From positions 1 to 27,850 of the IMG/VR virus record IMGVR_UViG_3300037635_001807: a stretch of DNA of 27,850 nt; one strand, given 5' to 3'. A program made the translations under genes and the position numbers. How positions within the stretch are numbered: the stretch's first letter is position 1; every line of letters begins with the position of its first letter. The notes beneath the pieces were generated by a model. It made no database searches and was not told the origin of the DNA. It saw only the letters and a program-made list of their open reading frames with translations. This document shows positions 2,581 through 8,465 of this stretch, piece after piece. The DNA comes from a virus.

Positions 2581-2784
2581 ATGAAATTGAGAATAATGAA
2601 TGAAACAGGACACACAGATTTAGATGTTAATACATCTGAAATGATTGAACAGTTGGCAGAACACCCAACCCATTGGGTATATGTTGACGGAGACATGGTT
2701 AGCCGTGAATCTGTTAGCGATATTAATTGGGATGGCGTTGAATCTGTTAACCTAGTTCAAGCAATTGTTGGCGGAAACCAATAA
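2581..2784 (+). CDS. Ubiquitin-like (beta-grasp) modifier candidate with Gly-Gly-Asn-Gln tail
   Basis: 67 residues from ATG at 2581, placed by AAGGAAG about 8 nt upstream; a TTG at 2542 would add 13 unlikely residues and has no ribosome site. The order fits a beta-grasp: strand 1 (MKLRIMNETG), hairpin strand 2 (HTDLDVN), helix (SEMIEQLAEH), strand 3 (HWVYVDG), then a last strand leading to Gly64-Gly65 and two extra residues, Asn-Gln. Ubiquitin-like proteins of prokaryotic E1/JAB systems typically end in GG, often with a short extension that the JAB protease removes. An E1-like enzyme (6132) and a JAMM protease (7004) are encoded 3-4 kb downstream. The GG codons (2773-2778) are not followed by a close start codon, so they are not a by-product of a ribosome site, unlike the GG at other protein ends here. 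The Ubl assignment is inferred from pattern and context. Confidence 0.6.
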   Translation: MKLRIMNETGHTDLDVNTSEMIEQLAEHPTHWVYVDGDMVSRESVSDINWDGVESVNLVQAIVGGNQ

Positions 2785-2931
2785 ATCTGCTTTAGTTCTA
2801 GTCTATCTTATCATAGATATAAAATCTATCGGTAATTACTATATGGTATTCACTACCGTAAAGTATTCCTAGTAACAGGAGACGTTATCGGACGGGTGCA
2901 AAGCCCGTTAACAAAATAATGTGGGATAAAA
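2785..2931 (+). promoter_or_regulatory. Structured 147-nt leader: three-way-junction-like RNA and/or internal promoter
   Basis: One of the few real gaps between genes. Complementary arms visible by eye: CTTTA 2790-2794 with TAAAG 2859-2863, enclosing ATAGAT 2813-2818 / ATCTAT 2824-2829 and CGGTA 2830-2834 / TACCG 2854-2858; these would make a three-way junction. Downstream, ACGGG 2892-2896 / CCCGT 2904-2908 is flanked by GTTA 2884-2887 / TAAC 2909-2912. The last hairpin (GGGTGCAA..CCC..TTAA) recurs at 15891. The SD-like GTGGGAT (2921-2927) of the next gene could pair weakly with CCC. A TATA-like TATAAAA at 2818-2824 could instead make this a promoter with a start site near 2845-2850. No tRNA fits. 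Confidence 0.5.
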
Positions 2932-3144
2932 ATGAAATGTAGAATATGTAAACAGAAATTAGGAACAAGAAATCATACTTCTAGAAAAAAAACAACAACT
3001 AATTTATGTTTCAATTGTATAAGAAACCCTCCCCTTGAAGAAAGGTGCAAGGGGATAACAGTAAAAAATAAAAAATGTAAATTAATTAAGAGAAACAATA
3101 GTGATTATTGTAAAATACATTCATCAAGAGAGACCATCAAATGA
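2932..3144 (+). CDS. Zinc-binding miniprotein (two Cys clusters)
   Basis: 70 residues, strongly basic. The N-terminal half has CRIC and LCFNC, a zinc-ribbon or knuckle. The C-terminal half has RCKG-x-T-x5-KC-x(9-10)-YCKIH, which resembles the small 'CKGITxxGxxC...YCxxH' domain seen in many viral and eukaryotic proteins (DUF5763-like, from memory). It probably binds two zinc ions and may contact nucleic acid. It is the first gene after the structured leader and overlaps the next gene by 4 nt. Cellular role unknown. Confidence 0.6.
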   Translation: MKCRICKQKLGTRNHTSRKKTTTNLCFNCIRNPPLEERCKGITVKNKKCKLIKRNNSDYCKIHSSRETIK

Positions 3145-3458
3145 AGTATTACAATAAAAATAAGCCTGACGAGGAATACCTACATATTTGTAGGGAAGTT
3201 CTAGTTGACACCATTATCGGTGCGGGTAACAAAAATAATGTATCTCATTCCTTTTGGAGAAGAAATAAAAAGGACATATCATATAGATTATTATGGTATA
3301 ATATAGTTAGTCATATTATTAACGGCAACTCAACACTCAAAACAGTAGAAGAATTACATAATTTTATCTACTATTCAACAAAACAAATTAAAAATAACAA
3401 AGAAAATAAATGGAGAGAAAAAAATGAAAATAAAAATAATAATACCCTCAGTAGGTGA
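3141..3458 (+). CDS. Basic hypothetical protein
   Basis: 105 residues, ATGA overlap with the previous gene. Tyr/Trp-rich helical core (residues about 12-85) and an Asn/Lys-rich, probably disordered tail that overlaps the next gene by 35 nt. No motif recognised. The poly-Asn/Lys tail is read from the same A-rich DNA that precedes the next start codon, so its sequence is probably under little constraint. Confidence 0.5.
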   Translation: MKYYNKNKPDEEYLHICREVLVDTIIGAGNKNNVSHSFWRRNKKDISYRLLWYNIVSHIINGNSTLKTVEELHNFIYYSTKQIKNNKENKWREKNENKNNNTLSR

Positions 3459-4797
3459 TGGAGGCAATACCTCAACATCGAGTTTCCTACTTAGGATATC
3501 CAATAACCAAAAGAAAATGTATAAACAATTATTTACTGGAACAGTAGATAGAAAGGCAACTGAAATAAAACGGTTATCAATCGAACCTACCCCTAGTAAA
3601 CTATATGGTTCTGATAGAGTTATTATTAGAACACCCAAAAACATGAATCATAGAGGTGAACATATAATTAATTGCGGTAGAATTAGGATGAATGAAGTTA
3701 AAGATGGAATAGACCCTATTTTAGAAACGGTTTCTAAACAAGTAAAAAACAACTTATTTCCCACTAAAGATTACGATACAGCAAAAGAAGATTTTATGAA
3801 TAGTATTACCTTCAAATATTTTGACGGTAATGTTCGTATAATTTATGGAAGAACTAACAAGAGATATTATATCAATACCTTACCTAGAAATAAAGCAGAT
3901 ATTGTCAAGGCAATCAGTAAAGTAATTCTAAGGGCTTCGCTTTCAAGAAGTTCAGTTCAATTGCGTGAGTATTTGAGAAAGGTAACTACTTTTCCTCATA
4001 ATGTTCTTTATGCTTTAGAAAACAGAACACCTTATCACTTTTTAGATGAGTTCCGTAAGACTGATGTTGTTATTAACACGAAACTAATAAGCGATAAAGA
4101 ATGTGTTTTAGAAATATCTGATAGCACTTGGGGTGTAATGTCAACTAAAGAATTAAGCACTTTCATTGACTACTATAAGTTCGGTAAGAAAAGGAGTAAG
4201 AAATGGAACATAAGAGTAGATAACGAGTTTCTTTGGACTGAATTGATGGGTAGTCCACCGACTAGAACAGAATTAGAAAAAATGAAACAATGGTTATTGC
4301 AACACCGAACTTCTAATATTATAGAAGATAGAGCAACTAAATTATTGTTCGACATTGCGGCTGAAACTCCTCAACTTGATTTCGTGCAATTCAAAAATCC
4401 TAAGAATAAAGCACTGTTCGTTCATGGAAAATATTCTGATTGGGTTATTACTTATACCGGAGATGGTATGAAAAGAGGTAATCAAGATGTCAATACCCAT
4501 CAAATAGTAGGGTTCAGTCAAGAAAAAGGTAATTGGCATGGTATGAAACTTTCAGGTTCAATTTGTATTGACAACGTTTCTAAAGGTGCTAGTATCGGAG
4601 ACCAACTAACAGCGAGGGCATTAGCATTAATCAATGAAGATATAGCGGCACATCATCTTTACACAATTAAACCGTTAATAACAGAAGATTTAAGAAATGG
4701 TGTTAAAGTAATGCCGAGATTAGACAGGAGTAAATTAAATGCGTGGAGTCAAAGAAAGTGTGATGAATATTTACACAAAAAAAAGGAGAATAAGTAA
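3424..4797 (+). CDS. Large hypothetical protein (457 aa)
   Basis: 457 residues from ATG at 3424, preceded by GGAGAGAAAAA. Mixed alpha/beta and basic. Features seen: a Gly/Ser/Thr-rich N-terminus (SVGDGGNTSTSS), a central helical region (residues about 155-215), and a strand-rich C-terminal third with several Gly turns (VHGKYSDWVITYTGDGMKRG). I see no P-loop, no obvious metal cluster and no membrane segment. Its size and its place before the TFB gene suggest a conserved lineage-specific protein, perhaps DNA-binding given the many Arg/Lys. A structure prediction or profile search is needed to assign it. Confidence 0.7.
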   Translation: MKIKIIIPSVGDGGNTSTSSFLLRISNNQKKMYKQLFTGTVDRKATEIKRLSIEPTPSKLYGSDRVIIRTPKNMNHRGEHIINCGRIRMNEVKDGIDPILETVSKQVKNNLFPTKDYDTAKEDFMNSITFKYFDGNVRIIYGRTNKRYYINTLPRNKADIVKAISKVILRASLSRSSVQLREYLRKVTTFPHNVLYALENRTPYHFLDEFRKTDVVINTKLISDKECVLEISDSTWGVMSTKELSTFIDYYKFGKKRSKKWNIRVDNEFLWTELMGSPPTRTELEKMKQWLLQHRTSNIIEDRATKLLFDIAAETPQLDFVQFKNPKNKALFVHGKYSDWVITYTGDGMKRGNQDVNTHQIVGFSQEKGNWHGMKLSGSICIDNVSKGASIGDQLTARALALINEDIAAHHLYTIKPLITEDLRNGVKVMPRLDRSKLNAWSQRKCDEYLHKKKENK

Positions 4798-4884
4798 ATG
4801 AAAATATGTAATAAATGTAAAAAAGAATTAGGAGACCTTCGGGTTAAAGATGGCGATTGTTGTAGAATAATGGTGATGAAATGA
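4798..4884 (+). CDS. 28-residue zinc-knuckle miniprotein
   Basis: Starts directly after the previous stop behind AAAAGGAG and stops at 4882-4884, overlapping the TFB start as ATGA. It carries ICNKC and a later CC pair, enough for one zinc. The conserved spacing to both neighbours and the good ribosome site argue for a real gene, but at this length it could also serve mainly to couple TFB translation to the upstream gene. Confidence 0.45.
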   Translation: MKICNKCKKELGDLRVKDGDCCRIMVMK

Positions 4885-5870
4885 AGTGTGTTGAATGCGA
4901 CTGCACCACTACAACCTTCGATGAAAGAATGGGTGAAACTATTTGTTCTGATTGTGGTTTGATATTATCAGTAAATATGTTTGAAGAAACTAGTGTATCA
5001 GTCAGAAGTAATGACAAAGCATTGGGTAATTCCTTTTCTAAAATCCGTGATGCTGACTTTAACGGATTGGGTTCAATGATTGGAAGACAAGATATTACAA
5101 ACAGGAAGACCTTCTATTTATTTGAAGAACAAAGAAGGACTGTTTATGATTCATCGACAACAAACTTTAGGCTATCTGCAAGTATGTTCTTATCATATTA
5201 TAATGGTAAAAAACTACTACAAGAAGCAACAAGGAAATATAAAACTATGAAAGAAGAACACTTAGTAAGAGGACTACCAATAGAAAACGTAGCGGCGGGA
5301 ATAGTTTATTATGTGTTAAAAGACAAGGGAATATCTGTTTCATTGAAAGAGTTTTCAAGACAAAGTAAAATACCTATTAAAAATATATTAAGGACTTCCA
5401 AAAGAGCGAAGAAGAAGTTCGGTTGTACTGATTTCAATTTTATAAATATAGATAATATAATAACTGAAACCATAGAACGTATTCGTGTTAGACAACAAGA
5501 TACAATAACAATACACAATCGAAAACACAAAGGTTCTGAAGGCCATGTGAGATATAAAAACAACCGTACCAGTTTTGAAGATATTCAAGGAGACTTAAGA
5601 CGAGATTGTTATAGGTTCGCTGAATATGTTAAGAGATGTTATGATTTGTTCGATGAGACTTTAACTAAAAGCGACATAATAGCGTCAATGTGGGTAGTGT
5701 CTCAGATTTATAATTCACAAAGTATCACTACTGCCGCACTATCAGAATGTGGTGGGTTTAGTGAAGTAACCTTAAGAGAAAAAAGAAAAAGAATTTGTTC
5801 TAATCTAAAATTAGATATAGACAAGATTAAACTTTATACTATTAATAATATAATAGACGGAGTAAGATAA
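4881..5870 (+). CDS. tfb: Transcription initiation factor B (archaeal TFB/TFIIB homologue)
   Basis: 329 residues, close to the usual archaeal TFB length of about 300-340. The N-terminal zinc ribbon is C3-x2-C6-x15-C22-x2-C25 followed by GLIL, as in TFIIB. After a linker come two cyclin-like repeats: one around residues 105-200 (the RGLPIENVAAGIVYYVLKD block is typical) and one around 235-325 (KSDIIASMWVVSQIYNSQS). TFB bridges TBP-bound TATA promoters and archaeal RNA polymerase. A virus-borne copy could redirect host polymerase to viral promoters; that use is inference. The first repeat is less conserved than in cellular TFBs, and residues 1-70 contain a B-reader-like stretch with unusual Asn/Ser content. 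Confidence 0.9.
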   Translation: MKCVECDCTTTTFDERMGETICSDCGLILSVNMFEETSVSVRSNDKALGNSFSKIRDADFNGLGSMIGRQDITNRKTFYLFEEQRRTVYDSSTTNFRLSASMFLSYYNGKKLLQEATRKYKTMKEEHLVRGLPIENVAAGIVYYVLKDKGISVSLKEFSRQSKIPIKNILRTSKRAKKKFGCTDFNFINIDNIITETIERIRVRQQDTITIHNRKHKGSEGHVRYKNNRTSFEDIQGDLRRDCYRFAEYVKRCYDLFDETLTKSDIIASMWVVSQIYNSQSITTAALSECGGFSEVTLREKRKRICSNLKLDIDKIKLYTINNIIDGVR

Positions 5871-5871
5871 A

Positions 5872-6135
5872 ATGATAAGAAGAAAAATAACAATGAAAAC
5901 AGCAAGCGGAAGAACGACAATAGATGTAAATTATTGTACTGCCTTTTCTATAAGAGAGGTGAACAAGAAAGGAGTATTATCTAAGGCTAAGTATGAATTA
6001 GATATACATATGCAAAGTGGTACTATATTTACAGCAGAAGCAGATGATAAGGAACTGTTAGTGTTCACTACGTTATGGGAAACCAAACGTGAACATAACT
6101 TATCTGTAATAGAATTAAAAGAGGAATTAGAATGA
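5872..6135 (+). CDS. Small beta-rich hypothetical protein
   Basis: 87 residues, starting 1 nt after the TFB stop. Strands dominate (RKITMKTASGRTTIDV, YELDIHMQSGTIFTAE), followed by a helix (DDKELLVFTTLWE) and an acidic tail. The strand-SG-strand-helix end resembles the proteins at 71 and 15928. It overlaps the E1-like gene by 4 nt and so is co-translated with the Ubl pathway genes, but there is no sign of a mechanistic link. Function unknown. Confidence 0.6.
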   Translation: MIRRKITMKTASGRTTIDVNYCTAFSIREVNKKGVLSKAKYELDIHMQSGTIFTAEADDKELLVFTTLWETKREHNLSVIELKEELE

Positions 6136-6761
6136 AAACAAAGAAATTAAAACAAAGAAAATTATTGATAATTGGAGCAGGTGGAATAGGTAGTTACCTA
6201 GCATCTTTCCTAGAAAGAATTAGTGAAAGAAGACAAGCACTGTATGACATCACAATTTATGATGATGATAAAGTTGAAGAAAAGAACTTATCCTATCAGA
6301 ACTTCACAGTTGAAGATATCGGTCGCCCAAAGGTTTCTGTTCTAGGCGATAAGATAGGAATACAATCAGCGATAACAGAAAAGAGAGAACATCAAGTTCT
6401 TACCGCTAAACAGTTAACTGAAAAGAAATATGATTTAGTAATCTGTTGTGTAGATAATCTTGCGGCAAGAAAACTCCTATACAAAACAGGACATGGTGAA
6501 GATAGTCCAGTAAAGTGGTTAGACCTTAGAGCGCAAGGTAGGAATGGAGTATTGATTTCTTACAAAGTTAATCCTATATTAATACCGGATTTATTAGCCG
6601 GAGCAGACGGTTCATTCAGTTGTCAAGGTGGTGATTGGGATGGTTCTGCTAAAGATATAAGTGCAATGCACATTGCCATAGCAGGTATTGCAACTCAATG
6701 GATACAGCGTTGGTTTAACGATAATAATGATGTTATAGATAAAATGGTGGTGAATGTATGA
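6132..6761 (+). CDS. E1-like / ThiF-family ubiquitin-like-activating enzyme
   Basis: 209 residues. A Rossmann nucleotide-binding loop GAGGIG lies at 15-20 behind a hydrophobic strand (KLLIIG). YDDDKVEEKNLSYQNF (43-58) is the family's second motif (acidic D44/D46, N52, Q56), then DIGRPK (62-67). DLVICCVDNLAAR (101-113) is the D-N-x-x-x-R motif that positions ATP and Mg. SFSCQGG places C164 where ThiF/MoeB/UBA-type enzymes often have a functional Cys. These enzymes adenylate the C-terminal glycine of a ubiquitin-like protein and may pass it to a thiol. The protein is short (cellular MoeB/ThiF about 240-270), lacking a rhodanese or adenylation-accessory domain. Coupled by ATGA to a zinc protein and then a JAMM protease. 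Alternative role: sulphur transfer without conjugation. Confidence 0.88.
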   Translation: MKTKKLKQRKLLIIGAGGIGSYLASFLERISERRQALYDITIYDDDKVEEKNLSYQNFTVEDIGRPKVSVLGDKIGIQSAITEKREHQVLTAKQLTEKKYDLVICCVDNLAARKLLYKTGHGEDSPVKWLDLRAQGRNGVLISYKVNPILIPDLLAGADGSFSCQGGDWDGSAKDISAMHIAIAGIATQWIQRWFNDNNDVIDKMVVNV

Positions 6762-7003
6762 GTAGTGAAGAAGACACTGAAATTGATAATTTAATAGAAG
6801 AAGACGTAGGTAATATTGTTAATGTTATTTCTACTGATGGTTTCTACAAACAAGCAGAAATAGTAAAGGTAGTTTGTCCGGCTTGTCTAGAAGCGTTTCT
6901 AGGAACAAAAAGACACGCAGGTGGATTCATAGCCGGACACAGAACATACCATGAGTTTGAAAACTCTATGGATACCTTGTTAGAACAAATGGGAGGAATA
7001 TAA
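6758..7003 (+). CDS. Small C2H2-type zinc protein between E1 and JAMM genes
   Basis: 81 residues, ATGA overlap with the E1-like gene. The acidic N-terminal half (about 1-35) is followed by VCPACLEAF, then after 17 residues from the second Cys a H-x3-H pair (GHRTYH), giving C-x2-C-x17-H-x3-H. This suits a zinc finger or small treble clef. It ends MGGI, but those Gly codons form the GGGAGGA ribosome site of the JAMM gene, so I do not read them as a modifier tail. The position between E1 and JAMM makes it a candidate adaptor or substrate-recognition subunit; a RING-like role cannot be claimed because there are only four ligands. Confidence 0.65.
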   Translation: MSSEEDTEIDNLIEEDVGNIVNVISTDGFYKQAEIVKVVCPACLEAFLGTKRHAGGFIAGHRTYHEFENSMDTLLEQMGGI

Positions 7004-7576
7004 ATGAAAGAAGAAATAAAAGAAGAAATGAATAATGAAGAAAATGAAAAAGCAATGAAGAACTTTGATTGGAAGGGACACATAAGAGATGTCTATAAAG
7101 ATATGAGTAACTCCGAAGGTGGTGTTAATTTTATTAGACCATGTGCAGATACAGAAACGTTTCTGTCTGCTATTTGGCAGATGTCTGATGAAGTTTTAGA
7201 AGGAATGGAAGTACAAGTAGTAATAGACGATAAAGATGATTTGTATATTAGTAGCGGCACACCCGCTTTCGTATCTTTTCAAGGACACGAAGATGAATTA
7301 ACTAACGGTGAACCTATGAGAATACCGATTAAGAGTTGGATACATACTCATCCCTTCGGAGAAGCATATCTAAGCAGTACTGATTGGAGAACTGTAAATA
7401 CTTGGAATACTATGATGAAGAGTGCAATAGTACTTGGGGATAATCAGTACCTTGCTGTTAACATGAATAATGAACAATACGAAAAAGGAACTTACTCAGC
7501 AAAGAAAGTTTTCTACGGTTTAATACAACAAACTGTTTTTGATGACATAGAACCTACAATGGGTGGTGAAGAATAA
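7004..7576 (+). CDS. JAMM/JAB (Mov34/MPN) zinc isopeptidase
   Basis: 190 residues behind GGGAGGA. The active-site signature is complete: H114-T-H116-P, then S124-x2-D127, i.e. H-x-H-x7-S-x2-D, ending the strand KSWIHTHP. The catalytic Glu normally lies on an upstream strand; E69 in GMEVQVVI (or E63/E66) is the likely one. The first 20 residues are highly charged and probably disordered. JAMM enzymes cleave the (iso)peptide bond after the terminal Gly of ubiquitin-like proteins, both to mature precursors and to remove modifiers. The E1-like gene is two genes upstream, and the Ubl candidate with a GG-NQ tail is at 2581. The terminal MGGEE is explained by the ribosome site of the next gene. No NlpC/P60 domain as in phage tail proteins. 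Confidence 0.88.
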   Translation: MKEEIKEEMNNEENEKAMKNFDWKGHIRDVYKDMSNSEGGVNFIRPCADTETFLSAIWQMSDEVLEGMEVQVVIDDKDDLYISSGTPAFVSFQGHEDELTNGEPMRIPIKSWIHTHPFGEAYLSSTDWRTVNTWNTMMKSAIVLGDNQYLAVNMNNEQYEKGTYSAKKVFYGLIQQTVFDDIEPTMGGEE

Positions 7577-7885
7577 ATGAATAATAAAGAATTAGTTGAA
7601 AACACAAACAATGTTGCTAAGGCTGTAAAGTCTCTTGTTAAAGATAACAAGGAACTATTAGATTTAGTATGTTACATGAGAAAGTTATTAGATGAATGTC
7701 TTCATGAAAATAGTGAAGGAGACTTAGTTATGTTAACTAATGACGATAAGAAATTATCTAGAGCCTTTGAAATTATGATGTTAGTCCAACATGAAAAGGA
7801 TTTAGAGAAAGAAAGAAAAGAACAACTTAAAGAGCGTTTCGGTAATCCGAAGGGCGAACAACTAGGGTTAGGTGCGTTTAAATGA
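7577..7885 (+). CDS. Helical coiled-coil protein
   Basis: 102 residues, starting directly after the JAMM stop behind GGTGGTGAAGAA. Nearly all helix; Leu/Val heptads at residues about 5-45 (NVAKAVKSLVKDNKELLDL) and a charged helix at about 60-95. Ends GLGAFK. Co-translated with the JAMM gene and overlapping the lipoprotein gene by 4 nt. Function unknown. Confidence 0.55.
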   Translation: MNNKELVENTNNVAKAVKSLVKDNKELLDLVCYMRKLLDECLHENSEGDLVMLTNDDKKLSRAFEIMMLVQHEKDLEKERKEQLKERFGNPKGEQLGLGAFK

Positions 7886-8388
7886 ATATGGAAAATAGCA
7901 GACAAACAACATTGAAAGAATTTGGATTAGTATTTTTGGTAGCAGTAATGTTATCAGGATGCGCGGGTGAAATAATACCCGACCCTCCATCGGATGATGA
8001 TAGAGTTATTCCTAACTCTTCTACATTAGAAGGTTCTTTTACAGTATTGGTTGGAGATGAAAATGCAACTAAACCTACAATCACATTGGGCAATTCAACA
8101 ACATGGTTAGAAGTAATTAGTTGTAATTATACTGTAACCCACTTAAGTTTCACAGTAGATAATAATACTGTAACTTTCCACAATTATACCTTTGAAGTCG
8201 GAGGATACGTGTCTCAAAACATAACTTACACACATAGACTTAATGCCGATATTATTTATTACGATTATCTTTGGTCTAGCGGCTATGCTCCTTCTATTGG
8301 AACAGTAGACCTATACTTCTCTGATTTTACATATGATATAACAATTAACTATACTATTACATATAGAGAATGGAGAGGAACGGAATGA
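7882..8388 (+). CDS. Predicted lipoprotein, secreted and rich in N-glycosylation sequons
   Basis: 168 residues (ATG 7882 overlaps the previous stop; ATG 7888 is an alternative). N-terminal signal: polar start, hydrophobic core GLVFLVAVMLSG, then a lipobox L-S-G-C with C27 as the predicted lipidated residue. After an acidic Pro-rich spacer the mature domain is strand-rich. It holds eight N-x-S/T sequons (N45, N61, N71, N82, N94, N101, N113, N156). Archaeal surface proteins are N-glycosylated at such sites, so this is likely a membrane-anchored, glycosylated outer-surface protein made during infection. Roles such as superinfection exclusion or virion surface display are possible but not shown. 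It is the only clear exported protein in the window. Confidence 0.75.
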   Translation: MNMENSRQTTLKEFGLVFLVAVMLSGCAGEIIPDPPSDDDRVIPNSSTLEGSFTVLVGDENATKPTITLGNSTTWLEVISCNYTVTHLSFTVDNNTVTFHNYTFEVGGYVSQNITYTHRLNADIIYYDYLWSSGYAPSIGTVDLYFSDFTYDITINYTITYREWRGTE

Positions 8389-8465
8389 CTTGTAACTACT
8401 GTAACAATGTAGAATATAGATTCGGTTTTTGTTACGAATGTTTTTGTAGGGAAAAGGGCTACTGA
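8385..8465 (+). CDS. 26-residue zinc-ribbon miniprotein
   Basis: ATG 8385 overlaps the lipoprotein stop (ATGA) behind GGAACGGA, and TGA 8463-8465 overlaps the next ATG (TGATG). Two Cys pairs, C-NY-C and C-YE-C, separated by 12 residues, plus one extra Cys, make a minimal four-Cys zinc site. The exact phasing with both neighbours supports a real gene. Function unknown. Confidence 0.5.
   Translation: MTCNYCNNVEYRFGFCYECFCREKGY

Follow-up and report, generated by a model that had tools for sequence, protein, structure and literature searches.

The conjugation of ubiquitin-like proteins (Ubls) is a process familiar chiefly from eukaryotes and, more recently, from bacterial antiphage defense. Published accounts describe bacterial operons that combine Ubl, E1, E2, and JAB genes, with polyUbls, JAB-E1 fusions, and classes 6a to 6e (PMC1779556), and BilABCD, in which a Ubl, an E2, an E1, and a JAMM protease share one operon, BilA is a tandem Ubl, and BilD joins an inactive and an active adenylation domain to a Cys domain (PMC11354881). 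For archaea, SAMP1/JAMM (PMC4443979) and E1, E2, RING, and Rpn11 proteins (PMC5654768, PMC6043591) are described; a 2010 account stated that E2-like proteins were unknown from archaea and that Jab genes seldom showed linkage to Ubl genes there (PMC2948915). Here we analyzed the IMG/VR virus record IMGVR_UViG_3300037635_001807 (the window, meaning the whole stretch of 27,850 bases), whose plus strand encodes a 67-amino-acid (aa) Ubl, a 457-aa E2-like candidate, a 209-aa E1-like enzyme, and a 190-aa predicted JAMM/MPN+ metalloprotease. A preliminary description made from the sequence alone had proposed a virus-borne Ubl, E1, and JAMM set within an archaeal-type replication/transcription block, and our analysis supports this proposal, all three open reading frames (ORFs) being present. 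With a probability of about two in three, we read these four genes as a viral cassette for ubiquitin-like conjugation and deconjugation that is related to a system of the hosts, which are probably Poseidoniales to judge from shared genes.

The type of system is known from bacteria (Bil and the 6a to 6e classes of Iyer), where sets of Ubl, E2-like, E1, and JAB/JAMM proteins likewise occur with tandem Ubls and E1-JAB fusions. The viral E1 matches the PADLOC models E1-E2 (1.6e-11) and BilD (2.4e-8), and the viral Ubl, E1, and JAMM genes are clustered. However, those systems are bacterial, whereas the present set is carried by an archaeal virus and by archaeal chromosomes. The viral E1 is a short single domain (209 aa) rather than a pseudodimer with a Cys domain like BilD, and the viral Ubl is single (67 aa), in contrast to tandem BilA, tandem Ubls being confined here to the hosts. 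The viral E2 counterpart is only E2-like, with neither a PADLOC model nor a sequence match to E2s.

With SAMP/UbaA/JAMM1 the cassette shares a beta-grasp Ubl ending in GG, an E1, and a JAMM; the SAMP2-JAMM1 complex is among the structure matches, and the viral E1 Cys164 (C164) aligns with the loop Cys of UbaA. In contrast to that system, the viral genes lie in a cluster together with a gene for an E2-like protein, and the viral E1 branches apart from host UbaA (support 100/100). The Caldiarchaeum Ub/E1/E2/RING/Rpn11 genes are also an archaeal multigene Ub-type cascade (PMC5654768, PMC6043591), and an Rpn11-like protein is among the matches of the viral JAMM profile, but no recognizable classical E2 or RING was found here and the Ubl family differs.

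Among phages, lambda TAPI/TAPK likewise pairs a Ubl with a JAB peptidase, but it sits in tail operons, and the available portion of the account names no E1 or E2 with it (PMC1779556). The viral E1 weakly matched crAss-phage ThiF proteins, at most 69% of the query being covered among the 30 matches listed, and the viral JAMM and Ubl had no match in the same phage collection. DeSAMPylases of Borgs have been described (PMC12660748). The RaFAH paper ranks a MoeB/ThiF gene among the auxiliary genes met most often in its archaeal viruses and connects it with ubiquitination (PMC8276007), so that a viral E1 alone is not new. For one marine group II single-cell genome, a UCH protease and RING E3s are reported (PMC4327156). 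The terms looked for were all absent from a magrovirus survey (PMC10160649), and in our literature search, which does not settle priority, we met with a description of neither the viral four-gene set nor a Poseidoniales tandem Ubl.

Linkage and conservation of the viral genes

Relatives were collected by tblastn, using the best 80 of 188 matching stretches for the Ubl, the best 80 of 288 for the JAMM, and 29 loci for the E1. All four genes were present in 47/47 JAMM-anchored loci (43 distinct anchor proteins), counted among L031 to L108 where more than 9 kb lay upstream, and in 73/73 Ubl-anchored loci with more than 8.5 kb downstream (56 distinct anchor proteins). Wherever a locus contained all four genes, their order on one strand was Ubl, 457-aa protein, E1, and JAMM (150/150 loci, a number that overlaps between searches and does not equal 150 viruses). 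In 22 long records (66.8 to 102.7 kb), picked after the Ubl, E1, and JAMM had been seen there and so a test of copy number only, the Ubl was single in each and the E1 single in each save one, in which a second, cut E1 at the start probably reflects overlapping ends. E1 and JAMM genes without the Ubl, the pattern that the preliminary description had set against its own proposal, occurred in none of the loci with enough sequence. On balance, we favor the view that the whole viral lineage keeps, as conserved genes, a complete cascade of Ubl, E2-like, E1, and JAMM proteins of common ancestry with the polyubiquitin-like system of Poseidoniales.

The Ubl gene (2581..2784, plus strand) has an ATG start, a TTG at 2542 also being allowed in the ORF list, and its product ends VGG-NQ, with Gly64-Gly65 at 2770-2775 and the tail NQ at 2776-2781. 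An AlphaFold2 model built on 42 aligned relatives (pLDDT 84.7, pTM 0.65) gave the order b-b-a-b-b-a-b (strands 2-7 and 10-15, helix 18-27, strands 31-35 and 38-40, helix 42-45, strand 55-60), in agreement with the beta-grasp fold proposed earlier. The top Foldseek rows for this model were mostly ubiquitin and Ubls (best E value 2.4e-3, none below 1e-3). VIA-align returned MoaD (Z 6.0), TtuB (5.4), SAMP2 with JAMM1 (5.2), ISG15 (5.1), and a bacterial Ubl-deubiquitinase complex (5.0), values which, by the notes of that program, alone indicate a common arrangement only.

The tail of the Ubl consisted of GG followed by zero to four variable residues in 154/154 loci, GG being terminal in 13. Such a GG tail, whose retention in relatives had been taken as decisive at the outset, was found in 90/90 distinct viral Ubls versus 32/569 other ORFs of the same viruses. 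The GG codons vary, and no ribosome site with a start directly follows the stop in the rows read. In addition, 71/80 distinct viral Ubl domains have zero or one lysine, which suggests single tags rather than Lys-linked chains. Single-sequence scans of the Ubl against Pfam and PHROGs returned nothing below 0.1. Two rows from its profile against PDB sequences (E values of 0.018 and 1) covered short stretches of unrelated proteins and were set aside as chance.

The E1-like enzyme (6132-6761, plus strand) belongs to the ThiF family (Pfam ThiF, E value = 1.5e-18 over residues 3-126; 67.3 bits versus a cutoff of 28.1). The motifs first noticed in the window, GAGGIG, D/D...N...Q, D-N-x3-R, and C164, are conserved in relatives, as GAGGIG, D44/D46, N52, Q56, K67, D108-N-x3-R113, and C164 (64/66; codon at 6621-6623, plus strand). 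Furthermore, SCQ was found in 71/71 aligned rows (34 viral and 37 host) and in 108/112 distinct viral E1 ORFs, the misses being two cut proteins and the E1-like genes of loci L029 and L030. When the E1 was aligned to host UbaA and MoeB with hhalign (E value = 5e-20), C164 fell on the Cys of VPSC-EGGVLG, the catalytic position of UbaA/Uba4; C164 is the predicted catalytic Cys, aligned with the UbaA loop Cys. The nearest profile matches were a ThiF-type protein (9egc), Cap2, UBA5, Uba4, and MoeB (2e-10 to 7e-10).

We built an E1 tree of 35 viral, 34 host, and 6 UbaA rows, thinned at 85, 95, and 90% identity, respectively, and excluding L029, L030, and the fragments L012 and L105. A branch (95/97) sets the viral rows apart, the host rows form a weak group (90/67), and UbaA is split from the virus and host rows at 100/100; the intergroup branches are long and drew a program warning. 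As far as sequences can tell, this fits an old common origin of the viral and host E1s. Two CxxC zinc motifs, with a rhodanese domain in some, mark the MoeB/UbaA sulfur-transfer E1s; the 209-aa viral protein has neither CxxC nor rhodanese and stands apart from host UbaA, and it falls outside that group. The distinct viral E1-like genes of L029 (9953-10648) and L030 (6168-6851) have 33% and 27% identity, and no Ubl, JAMM, or 457-aa partner was detected within the stretch examined.

The JAMM gene (7004-7576, plus strand) encodes Glu69 (near 7208) and HxHPx6SxxD (7343-7384). The H-x-H-x7-S-x2-D motif that had been pointed out beforehand is kept in 71/71 relatives, and so is the upstream E69, which had not been listed: E69, H114, H116, S124, and D127 each occur in 71/71 and are invariant over 40 aligned members. 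HxH..SxxD was present in 116/117 distinct JAMM proteins, the sole miss being cut by a contig end. Against the PDB, the JAMM profile reached an AMSH-like protease (4.5e-5 over 34 positions around the motif) and an archaeal Rpn11-like protein (8e-4, a short stretch around the motif), while a single-sequence Pfam scan gave only Prok-JAB (0.23).

Between the Ubl and the E1 lies the gene for the 457-aa protein (3424-4797, plus strand), in the very interval for which the preliminary description had reported no visible E2. That statement is not supported, since this protein, a good E2-like candidate that is always present in the set, has an invariant Cys381 and its top structure matches are E2s and one RWD domain. 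Cys381 (codon 4564-4566, plus strand) was found in 110/110 aligned viral homologues, otherwise diverged, in the setting G-x-I-C-I-D-N...GDQ, and in 32/32 viral plus host rows; the sequence pattern holds in 108/110, and both misses keep the Cys. It had been flagged as a possible E2 active site prior to structure prediction. The model (72 rows below 80% identity, one cut row excluded; pLDDT 90, pTM 0.80) predicts an E2-like domain at about residues 295-437 (4306-4734, plus strand) with helix 296-314, strands 318-323, 328-334, 339-344, and 356-364, Cys381, and helix 391-403, which is the order of E2s; the Cys follows b4 and precedes a2. The first 15 VIA-align rows, covering about residues 287-442, comprised E2 enzymes and a single RWD domain, the best with Z 4.7, a root mean square deviation of 4.6, and 124 aligned residues. 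Foldseek against BFVD gave three strong rows only, all unnamed viral proteins. The N-terminal part (about two thirds) has no known fold, and single-sequence scans of the protein gave no Pfam match below 0.2 and none in PHROGs. A match of the domain to aspartate decarboxylase, the best among PDB sequences (E value = 0.24), was dismissed as chance.

A homologous kit on Poseidoniales chromosomes

We scanned the Ubl alignment against genome contigs of 84,980 species, a search that needs close matches and does not imply absence elsewhere. It returned 14 loci, 13 of them titled Poseidoniales, Poseidoniaceae, or Euryarchaeota. The 14th (L188) is a magrovirus-like contig with a Ubl and the 457-aa protein in an Altibacter metagenome-assembled genome and is probably a binning error. 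Two Ubls stand head to tail in 11/13 host loci, each ending L-V-G-G, and 2/13 have a single Ubl. Polyubiquitin-like arrangements occur in genomes of the same order, with four Ubls in one ORF (L315, 826-1680) and three in another (L316, 584-1228); the fourfold protein matches Pfam Lambda_tail_I (5.4e-5).

An E1 match was present in 13/13 of these host genomes (in G031 of the longer UbaA type only) and a JAMM match in 12/13. The host E1 and JAMM genes adjoin in 11 of the 12 loci read, the twelfth being cut. One host genome carries a Ubl-Ubl-E1 fusion followed by a JAMM, another a Ubl beside an E1-JAMM fusion, and two further host E1-JAMM fusions were seen. Behind the host JAMM, L309 (5939-6178), L312 (5864-6100), L306 (6394-6633), L308 (6416-6661), and L305 (6018-6317) each have an ORF of 78 to 99 aa, and these ORFs look alike by eye; the L309 copy had no Pfam match.

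A Cys-domain (E2-like) protein lies near E1/JAMM or Ubl/E1 genes in 7/17 host loci, several of them short. These seven were inside the profile used, and their E values were not counted as finds; a viral-only profile found six of them (E values of 5e-3 to 2e-6 per locus), and the seventh, L306, was picked up with a motif pattern. An E2-like family is supported by three paralogues that were not part of the profile (L306 7884-9791, 3e-11; L317 872-2212, 5e-9, and 6717-7559, 2e-6), and the viral and host domains aligned with hhalign at 96.2% (E value = 1.5e-9). L317 (271-8203) holds two Ubls, three E2-like ORFs, and an E1 within 8 kb, which hints at diversification of the E2-like proteins.

Across 78 genomes of the order, the E1 was found in 36 and the Ubl in 36, with both in 33, one only in 3 and 3, and neither in 39 (Fisher P value = 4e-15, uncorrected for kinship). 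In a sample of the phylum, E1 matches occurred in 37/292 genomes; not all 37 were read, and at least one of them (G081, locus L313) is an ordinary CxxC-bearing MoeB-like enzyme. Because Poseidoniales chromosomes carry a homologous kit, the kit is, by homology, a system common to virus and host.

Proposed activity and alternative explanations

From conservation, linkage, motifs, predicted folds, and host homology, we infer the chemistry, conjugation, targets, and role in infection as follows. The JAMM would trim the zero to four extra residues off the Ubl, exposing Gly-Gly; the E1, with ATP, would adenylate the C-terminal Gly and load the Ubl on C164; and the Ubl would then pass to the 457-aa protein, at Cys381 in its E2-like C-terminal domain, while the N-terminal part of this protein may select or hold the target. 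The Ubl would be attached to host and/or viral proteins, and the same JAMM might remove it again. The host tag would be made as a single Ubl or as tandem (two to four) Ubls, and the viral copy probably redirects or overrides the host system during infection.

Several observations weigh against this reading. VIA-align on the Ubl also returned beta-grasps that are not modifiers (Raf ras-binding domains, 5.5; protein L, 5.0), and the Z of 4.7 for the 457-aa domain is low by the program's own notes. Foldseek against the PDB with the 457-aa model gave a best E value of 0.056, to a non-E2, and none below 0.05, a weak or absent fold match not being proof of a different fold. Sequence profile searches with this protein reach no E2; hhalign to four human E2s (E value = 0.096) and to UBE2D2 (E value = 0.044) placed the Cys in register, neither alignment being significant; UQ_con was absent among the 25 of 35 families listed for 72 members; and no HPN motif precedes the Cys in the alignment (by eye). 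On the host side, about half of the order's genomes are without the E1, the host Ubl of L318 ends in AG rather than GG, and the host assignment is based on shared genes rather than infection data. We use the label E2-like rather than E2 because the classical E2 sequence (UQ_con, HPN) was not encountered; given the model, the 457-aa protein is quite likely an E2-like enzyme, not a classical E2.

A claim on role, which can be compatible with a conjugation cassette, is that the genes serve counterdefense, mainly blocking a Ubl-based antiviral system of the host while the JAMM strips host tags and the viral Ubl and E1 compete. It would draw on the homologous Ubl, E1, JAMM, and E2-like genes of the host and on precedents given in one source, in which Borg deSAMPylases are proposed to counter host tagging and Bil is cited as a bacterial defense (PMC12660748). 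However, conservation of the E1 catalytic residues and of Cys381 in the 457-aa protein is as strict as that of the JAMM residues, and a pure stripper would need neither; moreover, nothing points to the host system being defensive. We regard this role as possible but doubtful. That the E1 and Cys381 are conserved along with the JAMM speaks for conjugation by the virus, rather than for a mere removal of host tags.

Conjugation could also run without an E2, as it does in SAMP/UbaA-type systems, the E1 modifying targets directly and the 457-aa protein being a substrate, an adaptor, or an E3-like partner. The lack of a significant sequence match to E2s and of a known fold in the N-terminal two thirds would suit this explanation, but the Cys is invariant among the viral homologues and the viral plus host rows (110/110 and 32/32), the predicted element order places it between b4 and a2, and E2s occupy the first structure rows, so we consider it unlikely.

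Sulfur-carrier systems such as QbsE/QbsD, CysO/Mec, and HcyS/HcyD include short tails trimmed by a JAMM. A carrier of this kind, in which the E1 would make a C-terminal thiocarboxylate on the JAMM-trimmed Ubl and sulfur would go to tRNA, a cofactor, or an amino acid, would agree with a Ubl that resembles MoaD/TtuB as much as ubiquitin (VIA-align) and with an E1 within the ThiF family, but it is less likely than conjugation, and indeed improbable, given an E1 without rhodanese or CxxC, an extra Cys protein that always accompanies the set, and no ATP_bind_3 (PF01171) thiolase in 22/22 long records, which are possibly fragments and in which other acceptors were not searched.

If conjugation by the cassette is correct, it would place Ubl conflict in archaea, in viruses probably infecting abundant marine archaea, where virus and host would each attach and remove their own Ubls, akin to each other but not the same, in a Ubl-against-Ubl conflict or a hijack. 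It would also offer a new E2-like family for testing and assign a function to core genes in viruses seen so far in metagenomes only. The proteins are small, and in recombinant form they would allow direct checks of E1 loading, E2 relay, and JAMM cleavage.

Genomic setting of the cassette

The plus-strand order in the window is Ubl, a 70-aa ORF, a 105-aa ORF, the 457-aa ORF, a TFB-like gene (4881-5870, plus strand; weak Pfam TFIIB support), an 87-aa ORF, E1, an 81-aa protein, and JAMM. Downstream of the JAMM are a DNA ligase, an RFC small subunit, a RadA-like ATPase, and PCNA (assigned by eye), as well as a B-family polymerase (tblastn). A 99,250-bp relative, with core proteins 100% identical to those of the window, has two opposed gene blocks. 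Magroviruses have genomes of about 90 to 110 kb with opposed replication and structure blocks and encode TFB, RFC-S, PCNA, PolB, and ligase (PMC10768690, PMC12999244). Because the opposed blocks of the relative match this published layout, and by gene content, the window is probably from a magrovirus, and the viruses with the cassette probably infect marine archaea.

The 81-aa zinc-finger-like protein (CPxC...HxxxH; 6758-7003, plus strand) lies between the E1 and the JAMM. It was found in 38/47 JAMM-anchored and 23/73 Ubl-anchored loci, and so not in every relative, and it is a possible accessory of the cassette. Its GG-x end was considered as a second Ubl tail and rejected: the codons are mostly GGAGG or GGGGG, that is, a ribosome site, with a start codon within a few bases in most of 47 rows (by eye), and five of the 47 rows are without GG.

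The noncoding stretch after the Ubl stop (2785-2931) resembles a structured RNA with three helices over 9 relatives; of the 19 pairs, 8 are changed on both sides. An Rfam scan of the window and of this stretch gave no match. Many ORF ends at 350-2545 and 5870-8390 read -EE. It appears that these gene ends share their letters with the purine-rich signal for starting the following gene, which makes such tails unsuited to reading as protein motifs.

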